Shown here: positions 52,185-59,313 of the stretch, in pieces
Position numbering within the stretch: position 1 is the stretch's first letter
How the letters are laid out: every line of letters begins with the position of its first letter
The notes under the pieces: model-generated
The model's database searches: none
Told to the model about the DNA's origin: nothing
What the model saw: only the letters and a program-made list of their open reading frames with translations
Made by a program: the position numbers and the translations under genes
Assembly: GCF_003149185.1 (NCBI RefSeq)
Contig: NZ_QGDO01000009.1
Location: forward strand, 1 to 64,000
DNA length: 64,000 nucleotides
Reading direction: 5' to 3'
DNA from: Sediminitomix flava
GTDB lineage: Bacteria > Bacteroidota > Bacteroidia > Cytophagales > Flammeovirgaceae

Positions 52185-52219
52185 CTGTTGATAAGTACTA
52201 GACTTGTCAACAGCTTTTC
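52185..52219. terminator. Terminator between methyltransferase and TPR gene
   Basis: CTGTTGATAAGT with ACTTGTCAACAG (12 bp, one G-U pair), 5-base loop, then CTTTT. It serves convergent genes and includes a DnaA-box sequence (52186-52194). Confidence 0.75.
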
Positions 52220-52244
52220 ACTTTTTAAGCTATTTCTTACGTTT

Positions 52245-54071
52245 TTAGTTGATATTATCCCCACGTAATGTTCTGAATCGCTTACGGGCATCCACATTAT
52301 AAACACTGCCTTTAAATTTCACGAGCTGATCTTTATAATATTCCATAGCCTTGTCATTATCTTTCAGATATTCCTCGTAAATCGTTCCAATCAAATAATT
52401 GGCATCATCTCCCCAGATATCTGTCGTATAGTTATCCACAATTTGTTGTAAAGCGTTGATAGATTCCTTGTATTTCCCTTGTTTTAGGTAAATCTGTCCC
52501 ATTTGCCACAAAATCTCATCAGAAAGACTGTGATTCGGAAAATCTTTCAACATTTGTTGATAACCTTCGAGTGCTCCATCGTATTTGCCTTGAAATTCCA
52601 GTAGATCAATACTAGCATAGGTTTGCATAGTGGTCGCTGTGGTATCCAATTCCAAATTATCTTGTATCAGAAGAGAGAGCGCCATGGCATCATTGGAAAT
52701 TTCGCGTGTAGTAGCCATTTTCAGAATATCTAAATGCGCTTTAGCTAGTTCAAAATTCCCAATGTAATAATTCAACTTCGCATTTTTGAGTTTTGCAGTA
52801 TGTCCCAAAGGTGATTCTTTCTCACTTTTTTCAACTTGTGAATACAAAAGCGTGGACTCCCAGTGTGTCCCTTTCAAAAGATAAATATCTCCCAAATCAA
52901 GCTTTGCACGTGAGTGTACTTTCTGAGGGACTGAACGCTCTTTTATCAACTGATTAAGGATTTCTATAGCTTTATCTTTATTATCGAGATAGAAGGCCTC
53001 TAAGAGCGCCATATTTCGCATTACATCTGCAGTACTACTTCTTACCCCCATTTCATTTAACATCTCCTTATAGTCTTGTATAAGGGTTCTGATCGCTTCT
53101 TTATCCACAGGGTAAGTATGTTTTACCAATTCCTCTTTAGTATTTATCAACAATTTGCGAGAAACTGGATATACAGCCTTGTCTTTGTACTTATCAACAA
53201 TGTATGTGAAAATCTTCTTGGAAGCTTTATAATCTTGGTTGTTCAATGCCATTTGCCCAAGCTCAAGTAATCCTTCACCTTCCATACCTCTACGTTTGTC
53301 AATTGCTTTGGCTTGAATAAAAGCTTTAGAAAAGGATTTTTCTTGCAAATAATACCATAAGAGTAATTCATTCAGAATAATCTGATTTGGCGATTTCTGA
53401 ATTCTTCTGATCAGATTCAATTCCAAAGTATCAAAGTCTTCATCTTTCTTTATCCGATCTTGTAAGGCTACTTCTATAAACTCCAACTGACGTCCATCTT
53501 GCAATAACCACTCGATATAGGCATCTATCATTTTATCTGTTCTATCCCAAGCATAATAAAGCTCGGCATACTCTCTGTACAGATTTTGATTTTTATTGAT
53601 TTTATCGGCTGTCTTGTAGCTTGTCTCTGCCCATTCAAATTTACCTGCATCTATAAAGTAAAGCGCAGTCATTCGTAGACGATCAGAATCCTTCTTTATT
53701 TCTTTAATATAATCTGTCCAATGGCTGTAAGCTTTTGAACTATCCTTCATGTTCAAATAGAGTAAGCCATAATCCACATTATAAACAGGACTCAAAGGAT
53801 CTTTCCGAATCTGACGTTTGAGATACTTTTGTGCTTTCTTAAATTCTTTATTGTTGATAAGTGCACTCAAATATTTTTTATGTACTTCTGAAATGGATGT
53901 TTCATCTTCTTTTAAAGCTTTTTCATAATACTCGATAGCCTTCTCGTATTCTCCATTAAAATAATATTCGTTTGCTAATTCGATCTCTTGTGTTTGTGCA
54001 TAAGAAAAAGTGGTAATAATGAATAAAAGGAAAAAGCTTAATCCAAATCTCTTTTTTTTCAAATGATCCAT
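52245..54071 (-). CDS. TPR repeat protein, periplasmic
   Basis: A 608-residue protein with a signal peptide (to about residue 25; FFLLFIITTFSYAQ) and many tetratricopeptide-like repeats along the whole length, for example ANEYYFNGEYEKAIEYYEKAL near 28-50 and EILWQMGQIYLKQGKYKESI near 515. It resembles the large TPR proteins of Bacteroidota that scaffold envelope complexes (a gliding/secretion-type scaffold cannot be confirmed). The gene also holds four exact DnaA-box matches (52432-52440, 53101-53109, 53144-53152, 53191-53199) plus one at 53852-53860, next to the candidate origin. Confidence 0.8.
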   Translation of the reverse strand: MDHLKKKRFGLSFFLLFIITTFSYAQTQEIELANEYYFNGEYEKAIEYYEKALKEDETSISEVHKKYLSALINNKEFKKAQKYLKRQIRKDPLSPVYNVDYGLLYLNMKDSSKAYSHWTDYIKEIKKDSDRLRMTALYFIDAGKFEWAETSYKTADKINKNQNLYREYAELYYAWDRTDKMIDAYIEWLLQDGRQLEFIEVALQDRIKKDEDFDTLELNLIRRIQKSPNQIILNELLLWYYLQEKSFSKAFIQAKAIDKRRGMEGEGLLELGQMALNNQDYKASKKIFTYIVDKYKDKAVYPVSRKLLINTKEELVKHTYPVDKEAIRTLIQDYKEMLNEMGVRSSTADVMRNMALLEAFYLDNKDKAIEILNQLIKERSVPQKVHSRAKLDLGDIYLLKGTHWESTLLYSQVEKSEKESPLGHTAKLKNAKLNYYIGNFELAKAHLDILKMATTREISNDAMALSLLIQDNLELDTTATTMQTYASIDLLEFQGKYDGALEGYQQMLKDFPNHSLSDEILWQMGQIYLKQGKYKESINALQQIVDNYTTDIWGDDANYLIGTIYEEYLKDNDKAMEYYKDQLVKFKGSVYNVDARKRFRTLRGDNIN

Positions 54072-55011
54072 TCCTGATAGCCTTTTTTGTTTATCAACAT
54101 CTATAATAAAAGAGTAAAGTAAAAATTAATTTCCTTATTCTATTATTATTATGCTGTGAATATGTTGATTACTTCTTTTATCAACAGCTTTTCACAGCTT
54201 ATCAACATTCTATTCATAGCTTAAATAGCACGTAATGAGGGATTTATTTGAGTTATAAACAGTGTTTATATTGTTCTATAAGTGCTTATCAACTGTTTAT
54301 ATCTTGCTATTTTCTGTTGATTTCATCCACAATTTGCTTATCAACACACCTGTTAGTATTGTTGGTAAGTACTTATTGTGAATAGCTGTTGATAAAAAGG
54401 CTAGGTTACAAACACTAAATTCACATCAGCCATTTTCTGTGGATAATAGGGTGTTTATATGTTGGTAATAAGATTTATTTACAATTGTTGAAATACATAA
54501 CTCTTTTTAAATACTGTTTTAGAGGCTTTTATGTAAATGATAGTAAAATTTTTCTGTGAATAATTCAATAAGTTATTCACATAGGATTTATCCAGTTTAA
54601 AATATGACAATAGTAAAATGATTTTTTAGAATTCAATTTTTACTTTTTGAGATTGTTTACATTTATTTTCAACATGCCTGATTTTTTATCCACTGAATAT
54701 GTTGATAACTTTTACGGTTTATAATAAGTCGTGTTGATAAGAAATCGTATCTGCTGGAGTTATTCAGAACTTTATCAAATATTTTAGATTTATTCGAGGA
54801 TTTATTGATTGATGATTTGTTGCTTTGTTTCATCTTATATAGTTTTGCCTTTCCTCATTTCCAACGCCAATTGTTGATAACTTTTTGATTTTTCAACTTT
54901 CCTGATTGAAAAATCGATTTTTCTATTTTTTATCCACTTTTCTGTGGATAAGTCCTATTTCAAGTATTTTCACCCCATTTTCTGAATAAATATGGCTTTA
55001 TGCCTATGTGG

Positions 55012-55066
55012 AGGCTGTTTTCATATGAATATATTATCTTATTTTCATGTGAAAACAGCCTTTTTT
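55012..55066 (+). repeat. 18-bp hairpin with T-tract inside the origin region
   Basis: AGGCTGTTTTCATATGAA (55012-55029) pairs with TTCATGTGAAAACAGCCT (55044-55061), one G-T pair, 14-base AT loop, followed by TTTTTT. It has the form of a rightward intrinsic terminator but no gene precedes it; it may end an origin-proximal small RNA or block transcription into the DnaA array. Confidence 0.6.
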
Positions 55067-55569
55067 CTTTCATTTATCCACAATTTCATGGTTGAAAAAT
55101 CTATAAATGGCCTATTTATTTAAAAGTTATCAACAATTGTATAGGCTTATTTTAGATAAATGGATTTTTTTAGACTATAAACAAAAAAAGTGTTGATAAC
55201 TTTTGACTAAATCAAAATTTATCAACACTATAATTTTATATAACTATCTATGAATCAGTAAAATAAATTGTGTTTATATACTTATTCACATATAGGTTCG
55301 AGTTATCAACATATATTGTGGATATATAATTATCTTTTTATGAAATTGAAGGATTTAAATATTTATTTCGGTGTGTGTGGATAAGTTATACCCTATTTTT
55401 TAGACTTATCAACATTTGAAAGATTTATTGTTGATAAATAGTAAAAATGTGCTTATAAATTAAATAAAGACACATTTTGTTTGTTGATAAGTACTTTGAA
55501 AAGTGAAAAAATAAGAACTTTGTCAACATCGGGAGAGAAATCTCTTTATATCTTGTGGATAAACATAAA

Positions 55570-55604
55570 AAGCCCGTACAAATATACACAATTTGTACGG
55601 GCTT
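55570..55604 (-). terminator. Terminator of the Ig-like protein gene
   Basis: A perfect 14-bp stem (AAGCCCGTACAAAT with ATTTGTACGGGCTT), 7-base loop, A-run on the left giving a U-run on the minus strand. Confidence 0.9.
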
Positions 55605-55636
55605 CTTCATTAATATATGATTGATACGTTTAAAGT

Positions 55637-57349
55637 CTAAAATTCAATGACCGTATCAGAACGCATAATTTCCCAGTTTGCTTTGACCGTTATTTTCTTT
55701 TTGAATATGATCACAGGCTCTGGAGGAATTTTATCTTTATAAGATCCTTTTGACCATTCACCATCCTTATTTTCGTCTACTAAAATTCGGATAAAATAAT
55801 CTCCAGGTTTTACATATTCAAATCTGAAGTATTCTTCATTTTCAATTTCATCGACAACTTCAAATTTGCTATCTAATAACTGTACGAAGAATGGCAGTTT
55901 ATCTTTCGATTTTGCTTGCCCTTCAATTGCTCCAAATTTAGTTTCATCTTTGATAGAAAATTTGATTGTCTCTGTCTCACTACTATCTCCGAAAACAGAA
56001 ATAAATGCTCCCGGATTGAAGACCAATGCAAAAGCAGAATCCGCGACAAAACCTGAGTAAGTATATTGAGAAAAATTGAAGTTTACTTCTGGAGCTTTAT
56101 CCAATACCAAAGTGTCTTCACCATAAATTGCCCAAACACTGTCAGCTGTGTAATTCAATACAGGTTTTTCAAAGTCTAAAACAAGATCAAATTTTTCTGT
56201 AGGACGAAGATCGTTTTGTAATGGTTCACGCTGTGTAAACTTGAAAGTAGGTCCTCTTTTTTCGGTTTCATCTTCTTTACCTCTAAAGAGTCCACCAATA
56301 CCACTATTTTTCTTTTCTTCAGCAACTCTTTTTTCTTTGATATCAGAAGTCAAGAATAATTTAGCTGTTGTGTCTAATTTTTGGAGTAAAGAATCTACAG
56401 CGAAAAGCTTTATGTCTAGAGAATCTTCAGGCATATCATCTTGACCTGTGTAGAAAAGTTGAAGTTCACCTTCGGCAGTTAATTTATGGAAAAGGCTGTC
56501 TTTATAGTTTTCATCTAGAATTTCAATTCCATATTCAATAAGACCTTTATTAAAATCTAGGAATGTTTTTCCTTTTTCTTTCTTGACTCTTTCATAAATG
56601 ATAGTGTCATTATCATATTCAATTAGCTTGAATACAACATTTGCAGAGTCTTTATTGATGTCGAAGGTTTTGTTGAAAAATTGAATTTTCTCCTCTCTTT
56701 GGTCATATTTCAAATTTCCACCGTCTTTTCCTTCGTATAAACCGTAAGCTCTATACTCTCCCGATTTTATATTTGAAATAGAAAAACGTCCGTCTTCATC
56801 GGTATTCGCATAATAATAAGGAGCTACACTATCTATGACAGCGGTATCAACTTTTGCATCATACAAACTTATAACTGCATTTTCTAAAGGCTTATTATCC
56901 ATTAAATTTAGAACTGTACCACTAATCTGAATTGTATCCAGTTCTGGTCCCGTACTAAATGCCACAATTGCATTTTCACTCGGATTACCTTCAGTTACGT
57001 CAATGACTGCATTTCTGAAATTGAAATTAAAAGTTGTACTGTCCTCTAAAGGTTCATTAAACTCTAAAATCAGTTTATTATTTCGAGTCTTGTATCTGTA
57101 AATACGTCTGTCTTTGTAAGGATTGATCTGAAGCTGTTTTGTGATCTTATCGACTTTTATAGCTTCATCAAATATGAAAGTAAGTTTGTCTTCCTGAAAA
57201 TTCACCCCATTATTTAAAGGAACTGAAGCAACAAGATTTGGAGGATCTTCATCTTTAGGACCACCACCAGGTGAAACTACAGTTGCACAGGAATAGAAAA
57301 AAAACACAAATACGGCTAAGTATATAGCACGAATAAAAATATTCTTCAT
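55637..57349 (-). CDS. Ig-like-domain lipoprotein
   Basis: About 570 residues. The frame opens eight codons earlier at 57373, but the ATG at 57347-57349 gives a lipoprotein signal (MKNIFIRAIYLAVFVFFFYSC). After CATVVSPGGGPKDEDPPNLV comes a Big_5/SbsA-like Ig domain (KLTFIFDEAIKVDKITKQLQI to AFSTGPELDTIQIS), a SpaA-like carboxypeptidase-regulatory domain (GTVLNLMDNKPLENAVISLYD) and a C-terminal DUF-type beta region. Conserved in Bacteroidota; probably an outer-membrane surface lipoprotein. The role is unknown. Confidence 0.85.
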   Translation of the reverse strand: MKNIFIRAIYLAVFVFFFYSCATVVSPGGGPKDEDPPNLVASVPLNNGVNFQEDKLTFIFDEAIKVDKITKQLQINPYKDRRIYRYKTRNNKLILEFNEPLEDSTTFNFNFRNAVIDVTEGNPSENAIVAFSTGPELDTIQISGTVLNLMDNKPLENAVISLYDAKVDTAVIDSVAPYYYANTDEDGRFSISNIKSGEYRAYGLYEGKDGGNLKYDQREEKIQFFNKTFDINKDSANVVFKLIEYDNDTIIYERVKKEKGKTFLDFNKGLIEYGIEILDENYKDSLFHKLTAEGELQLFYTGQDDMPEDSLDIKLFAVDSLLQKLDTTAKLFLTSDIKEKRVAEEKKNSGIGGLFRGKEDETEKRGPTFKFTQREPLQNDLRPTEKFDLVLDFEKPVLNYTADSVWAIYGEDTLVLDKAPEVNFNFSQYTYSGFVADSAFALVFNPGAFISVFGDSSETETIKFSIKDETKFGAIEGQAKSKDKLPFFVQLLDSKFEVVDEIENEEYFRFEYVKPGDYFIRILVDENKDGEWSKGSYKDKIPPEPVIIFKKKITVKANWEIMRSDTVIEF

Positions 57350-57379
57350 TTGTAATGTTCTAGTTATAGCCATAAAAAT

Positions 57380-57438: not shown

Positions 57439-59313
57439 TTAACGATTTTCTAGATGTACCATCAAAATAGAAACATCGGCAGGACTTACACCACTAATTC
57501 TTGATGCTTGACCAAGTGTCATTGGTTTCATTCTATTCATCTTTTCTCTTGATTCAGCCGAAAGAGCTTTTAGAGAATGGAAATCGAAACCTTCAGGTAT
57601 CTTATAGTTTTCTAAAGAAGTCAGCTTCTCAGCTAGTTTTTCTTCTTTTTCAATATACGTTTCATACTTCACCAAGATCTCAGTCTCCTCTTTTACTAAA
57701 GTATCGAGACCTGTGATTCGCTCACGAATTGGCTCAGAACAGTCTCCCAAAATCTCCATTGAGACATTCGGACGTTTCAAGATTTGTTCAGCTTTCATCC
57801 CTTGAGCTAAAAGATCAAGTCCATGTTTTTCTAATGCCGGGTTTGCCTCTTTAGTCTTTACTGAAGTGTCTTTGATCAGTGCAGTAAGTTCTTCGATTTC
57901 TTTATATTTCTTTTGAACTTTTTCATAAGCCTCATCACTTGCCAATCCTACTTTATGTCCTAGTGGAGTCAAACGATAATCTGCATTGTCTTGACGAAGA
58001 AGAATTCTGTATTCAGCTCTTGAAGTAAACATACGGTAAGGCTCATCTGTACCTTTGTTGATAAGGTCATCGATAAGAACTCCAATATAAGCTTCAGAAC
58101 GTTTTAGAATGAATGGTTCTTCTTCTCTGATTTTATTTACAGCATTAATACCAGCCATCAAACCTTGAGAAGCTGCTTCCTCATAACCTGTAGTACCATT
58201 GATCTGTCCAGCAAAGTACAAGTTTTCTACAAGTTGAGTCTCCAAAGTTAGTTTCAACTGCGTTGGAGGGAAGAAATCATATTCGATAGCATAACCAGGA
58301 CGGAACATTTTTGCGTTCTCGAAACCAGGAATAGTTCTCAATGCTTTGTATTGAACGTCTTCTGGTAGAGAAGTTGAGAAACCATTTACATAGATTTCAC
58401 AGGTGTTCCAGCCTTCTGGTTCAACGAAAATTTGATGTCTATTTCGTTCCGCAAAGCGGTTAATTTTATCTTCAATTGATGGACAATAGCGAGGTCCTAA
58501 ACCTTTGATACGTCCTGCGAACATTGGCGAACGCTCAAAACCTGTTTTCAAAATGTCATGAACTTCAGGATTTGTGTAGGTAATATGACAGCTTCTTTGC
58601 TTCTCTAAAGGAAGGATTTCTGTTTGATCGCTGTATGAAAACTTGCTTGTAGCATCATCTCCTTTTTGCTCTTCCATCGCTTCCCAGTTCAGAGAACGAC
58701 CATCAACTCTTGGAGGAGTACCTGTTTTCATACGTCCAGCTTCAAAGCCTAGCTCTACCAATTGTTCAGTAATACCAGTAGCAGCACGTTCTGCAGCACG
58801 TCCACCTCCGAATTGTTTTTCCCCAATATGGATCAAGCCATTTAAGAAAGTACCGTTGGTAAGCACTACTGCTTTTGCTTTGAATTCGATTCCTAGTCCA
58901 GTTTTTACACCTACTACTCGACCATCTTCTACGACAAGTTCTTTAGCCATTTCTTGCCAGAAGTCGACATTCGGATTATTTTCCAAAGCCATTCGCCATT
59001 CTTTAGCGAACAACATACGATCATTTTGAGATCTAGGACTCCACATTGCAGGTCCTTTAGATCTATTCAGCATACGGAATTGAATCATGGATTTATCAGA
59101 AATGATTCCTGACATCCCACCAAGTGCATCAATCTCTCTTACAATTTGACCTTTAGCAACTCCACCAATTGCGGGGTTACAGCTCATTTGAGCAATAGTG
59201 TCCATGTTCATTGTGATGAGCAAAACTTTTGCGCCCATCTTTCCTGCTGCGTTTGCGGCTTCACATCCAGCATGTCCACCACCTACTACAATAATATCGT
59301 ATTCTGGATACAT
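57439..59313 (-). CDS. mnmG: tRNA uridine-5-carboxymethylaminomethyl modification protein MnmG (GidA)
   Basis: A 624-residue FAD-dependent subunit of the MnmEG complex that adds cmnm5 to U34 of tRNAs. Dinucleotide-binding motif [19 protein letters not shown] near residue 10, the GidA signature [24 protein letters not shown] near 48, the second FAD-binding [20 protein letters not shown], and the C-terminal domain ending in VDRSGISPAD-like [13 protein letters not shown]. Full length. In many bacteria mnmG is beside the origin; here it flanks the DnaA-box region and has parS sites in its leader. Confidence 0.97.

Follow-up and report, generated by a model that had tools for sequence, protein, structure and literature searches.

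In our assessment, positions 54072-55636 of the sequence analysed here hold oriC, the site from which a bacterium of the Flammeovirgaceae (Cytophagales, Bacteroidota) starts to replicate its chromosome; we give this reading a probability of about 0.94. The window, that is, the whole stretch of DNA that was analysed, comprises the opening 64 kb of the 240-kb contig C9, which belongs to a draft genome of 6.6 Mb in 39 unordered contigs; the closest MnmG proteins found belong to Flammeovirga and are 77% identical. An earlier note had put the locus forward as a candidate chromosomal origin, and box enrichment, a switch in GC skew and synteny all support that proposal. The more unusual part of the system is not oriC itself but a set of satellite arrays of DnaA boxes.

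Results

A dense DnaA-box array in gene-free DNA

The region carries 23 exact DnaA boxes between 54091 and 55562, namely 15 copies of TTATCAACA, five of TTATCCACA and three of TTATTCACA, with 11 on the plus strand and 12 on the minus strand. In 2,000 shuffles of the same 1.5 kb under a first-order Markov null, the mean was 0.15 boxes and the maximum 2. The earlier note had counted 22; its figures for TTATCCACA and TTATTCACA stand, whereas TTATCAACA occurs 15 rather than 14 times. Its rough estimate of fewer than one box by chance agrees with the shuffles, and its description of the DNA as gene-free and AT-rich is likewise accurate (longest ORF 61 aa; 74% AT). Genome-wide, TTATCMACA occurs 296 times in 6.6 Mb (0.045 per kb), compared with 20 times in the 1.5 kb of the array. 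The gene for the TPR protein on the left holds six boxes as against 1.0 in synonymous-codon shuffles, and the array thus runs on leftward. The high AT content might suggest that the array is a chance product or compositional artefact, but composition-preserving shuffles yield almost no boxes and reversed-sequence controls are near zero across the corresponding gaps of the Cytophagales; these two results refute a chance origin, which we regard as negligible.

Table 1. Features of the probable origin locus (positions in the window) and of satellite clusters in relatives (positions in the locus named)
Feature	Position	Strand	Basis or remark
Probable oriC core, gene-free and AT-rich, 23 exact DnaA boxes	54072..55636		Box counts, ORFs, skew, synteny
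Left extension of the array, 7 more TTATCMACA, 6 of them within the TPR gene	52186..54071		Box search, synonymous shuffles
Candidate unwinding stretch	54092..54180		Second least stable 60-mer of the 64-kb window; presumed role
Second candidate unwinding stretch	55227..55290		Third least stable 60-mer; presumed role
Convergent box pair (55191, minus; 55219, plus) in a 31-nt imperfect inverted repeat	55176..55242		
Inverted repeat of 22 nt (91% complementary) with a T run after it; terminator-like on the plus strand	55012..55061		
Intrinsic-terminator-like hairpin, 3' of the Ig-like gene	55567..55607	-	
TPR-protein gene, left flank, kept in Cytophagales	52245..54071	-	Pfam
Big_5/Ig-like-domain gene, right flank, kept in Cytophagales	55637..57373	-	Pfam
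mnmG (gidA)	57439..59313	-	Pfam
Kinase-gene box cluster	L160 11832-13148; L229 15327-16643		
panB box cluster	L159 5976-6458; L228 10785-11070		

From what is known of other origins, DnaA encoded elsewhere in the genome would bind the many boxes of the array and form an oligomer, which would melt an AT-rich stretch between boxes; the replicative helicase would then load at the melted stretch and two forks would leave. The candidates for melting are the two unwinding stretches of Table 1. The first is adjoined by boxes at 54091, 54178 and 54199, with TAATAATAATAG there on the minus strand, and the second by boxes at 55219, 55282 and 55303. Runs resembling DnaA-trios gave a weak signal (five, compared with 1.5 in shuffles), and the search of the array region for unwinding elements found no 13-mers of the E. 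coli type.

The hairpin 3' of the Ig-like gene, read from 55607 to 55567, would end the transcript of that gene before it entered the array. The other terminator-like repeat (55012-55061) sits in the middle of the region, where there is no gene to terminate on the plus strand. A match to a Bacteroidota-type promoter lies at 54816; there are five such matches in the window, possibly by chance. Farther out from the array, Pfam matches identify metG, pheS and an RNase R-like gene, and the strands of most of the named genes bear out the statement of the earlier note that most flanking genes would be transcribed head-on to the forks. An Rfam search returned two tRNAs and nothing else.

The genome encodes a DnaA initiator, given by a single Bac_DnaA match (547 aa, C1:1609749), and the 3.5 kb around this gene contain one box and no array. 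The earlier note was right that no dnaA adjoins the array, but the caution that it drew from this is not upheld, because the single dnaA of the genome is on a different contig, with no array beside it. The lack of dnaA at oriC is normal in these bacteria.

Conserved position and box usage across the Cytophagales

Across the Cytophagales, mnmG is followed in the same way by the Ig-like gene, a box-rich gap and the TPR gene. Of 36 Cytophagales loci, 35 have at least one box and 33 at least two between the Ig-like and TPR genes; a few genomes are counted twice among the 36, as they came from two collections. The position of the array is thus conserved among relatives. Its size is not matched elsewhere, as the highest count in any other Cytophagales gap examined was 9, compared with 23 here.

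In these gaps TTATCAACA, TTATCCACA and TTATTCACA reach densities of 2.42, 1.69 and 1.50 per kb, as against 0.136, 0.060 and 0.076 per kb in the flanks, which corresponds to enrichments of 18-fold, 28-fold and 20-fold, respectively; the reversed-sequence controls gave 3, 0 and 1 matches in the gaps. A further box, TTATACACA, is also enriched in gaps over flanks. The earlier note had suggested that the A at position 6 of the dominant box, which accounts for 15 of the 23 in the array, may mark a lineage-specific preference of DnaA. This suggestion is not borne out: the enrichment of TTATCAACA is no larger than that of the other two boxes, and the predominance of A therefore seems to be largely a matter of background composition. 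Judged by these counts, A at position 6 would be accepted by DnaA and not specially preferred.

GC skew

On contig C9 the cumulative GC skew falls across the window to its minimum at ~70 kb, about 14 kb to the right of the array, and from there climbs far above the minimum by the end of the contig at 240 kb, except for a reversed block at 120-140 kb; genes at 120-160 kb lie mostly on the minus strand. For this genome the skew is that of contig C9, as 39 unordered contigs give no genome-wide minimum. Three relatives carry the array on large contigs. Skew values come from sampled stretches. In G007 (5.2 Mb) the skew is mixed to the left of the array at 4.754 Mb and persistently positive from 4.765 Mb; in G011 (5.19 Mb), with the array at 107 kb, it changes from -0.10 at 100-120 kb to +0.09 at 120-140 kb; and in G014 (7.66 Mb), where the array is at 7.224 Mb, the switch falls between 7.16 and 7.215 Mb and its reverse at 3.4-3.9 Mb, on the opposite side of the chromosome. 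A skew minimum elsewhere in the genome, the outcome that the earlier note had set against an origin, is thus not what was found: on the own contig and in these three relatives the switch falls at the locus or within tens of kb of it.

Beyond the draft state of the assembly, three observations were counted against oriC. One is a second array, on contig C12, which is taken up below. Another is the offset of the skew minimum, which in several genomes is displaced by 10-15 kb from the array toward the side of minus-strand genes; on C9, minus-strand genes account for 96% of the coding bases between 54 and 70 kb. Since the offsets fall on minus-strand genes, we infer that transcription-linked skew is their likely cause. 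The third is the skew curve of G007 and G011, which is nearly flat for ~100 kb to the left of the array.

The array on contig C12

The second array of this genome has 15 boxes in 0.7 kb (C12:51883-52557, near the contig end), and overlaps the first ~220 codons of a 749-aa ORF that encodes a lamin-tail domain together with a type IX secretion signal domain. It is as dense as the array beside mnmG, and both E. coli and B. subtilis have clusters of DnaA boxes outside the origin (PMC5295017), so that one could take the mnmG array for a DnaA-titration or regulatory locus of the datA or DBC kind and look for the true origin elsewhere, for example on C12. We consider this very improbable. In relatives with both arrays on one contig, the lamin-tail gene lies 70-196 kb from the mnmG array, and in G014 it is embedded in DNA of negative skew while the switch occurs at the mnmG array. 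Moreover, the mnmG array is syntenic across the Cytophagales, whereas the C12-type array extends over coding sequence, and several other genera of the family have no boxes there. A second origin on C12 was likewise rejected, as the skew of G014 and synteny both point to the mnmG array.

A second chromosome has been described in Flammeovirga species (PMC8653839), and in an unordered draft the mnmG array could in principle belong, as origin, to such a replicon or to an integrated plasmid and not to the main chromosome. This is highly improbable, for relatives carry the array on their large contigs (5.2, 5.19 and 7.66 Mb), mnmG and essential tRNA-synthetase genes stand beside it, and the second chromosomes of Flammeovirga are reported to have RepA/ParAB, with dnaA on chromosome I only (PMC8653839). 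The arrangement of one array per replicon on two chromosomes was rejected because relatives assembled in few contigs hold both arrays on the same large contig.

Satellite arrays near the origin

The lamin-tail ORF of this genome contains 14 boxes, compared with 2.4 in synonymous shuffles (maximum 5). Its homologues in relatives are longer, at 1500-2500 codons, and in most genomes where the gene has boxes their number exceeds that in synonymous-codon shuffles. The gene of G017 (2436 codons; G017:C9:2716000-2732000) has 34 exact boxes (shuffles 6.4, maximum 13), and those of all nine Flammeovirga genomes have 5-9 (shuffle means 1.1-3.0); in G004 and G008 the count is not above the best shuffle, and in G002, G012, G013 and G015 the gene has zero boxes. 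Many of the boxes in G017 repeat every 777 bases. The excess over synonymous shuffles is one at the DNA level, but it would be compatible with some of the boxes having been copied by duplication of protein repeats.

Two further clusters occur in Flammeovirga (Table 1). One lies inside a gene for a sensor histidine kinase in seven of nine genomes, with six boxes in each of the two genes tested, compared with 1.7 and 1.1 in synonymous shuffles; in G007 and G011 this cluster is 62-71 kb away from oriC. The other, mostly intergenic, lies by a pseudouridine-synthase-like gene that adjoins panB in all nine genomes, 88-96 kb from oriC in G007 and G011. Clusters of at least four boxes per kb are thus found outside but near oriC, at 62-196 kb, in G007, G011 and G014; these distances are those of relatives, the C12 array of the present genome being on a separate contig from the C9 array. 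The distant samples, which came from three genomes and amounted to 975 kb, showed no cluster of that density, and 100 genes far from the origin in G007 contained 21 boxes, compared with 13 expected. A small cluster of four boxes in the present genome (C6:200122-200871) has a short ORF on one side and a metallophosphatase-like gene on the other.

Discussion

In E. coli, oriC is also found beside mnmG (gidA). The locus shares with origins of this type a cluster of DnaA boxes in AT-rich intergenic DNA near mnmG, a GC-skew switch and the absence of an adjacent dnaA; it differs in its immediate flanks, which are the Ig-like and TPR genes, and in its 23 exact boxes over 1.5 kb. An oriC at mnmG has already been reported in Bacteroidota, where Ori-Finder 2022 and GC skew placed it there in a Flavobacteriaceae strain (PMC12843772); the location is therefore of a known kind, and this locus is a further case. 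The main text of the paper on the chromosomes of Flammeovirga makes no mention of oriC or GC skew (PMC8653839).

The satellite arrays are candidate DnaA-titration loci, by analogy with the DnaA-box clusters of B. subtilis and datA of E. coli. The clusters proximal to oriC in B. subtilis (Okumura et al. 2012), as far as they are described in PMC5295017, resemble them in lying outside yet near the origin, the distance here being that measured in the relatives; unlike them, some of the present satellites are inside coding sequences, and a titration effect is here only a candidate one. In E. coli, DnaA boxes accumulate in general around oriC, and datA is, like the satellites, a box-rich locus in the neighbourhood of oriC at which DnaA could be held (PMC12371093, PMC5295017); datA is described as non-coding, and the likeness, on present evidence, does not extend to an IHF site or ATP hydrolysis. 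We propose tentatively, and at somewhat less than even odds, that the origin-proximal arrays which accompany oriC in the Flammeovirgaceae, at least two of them within unrelated genes (one for a lamin-tail surface protein, the other for a sensor histidine kinase), are DnaA-titration loci under selection at the DNA level. Such smaller arrays near the origin may help to time replication.

With this locus, a little-studied family of Bacteroidota gains an oriC defined by its sequence, and the conserved gene order lets the origin be located in draft genomes of the Cytophagales. The satellites allow initiator titration to be tested directly in bacteria other than E. coli and B. subtilis, and they suggest selection on DnaA sites inside coding sequences. 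If this is true, an initiator-titration system of the Bacteroidota would be lodged in genes.
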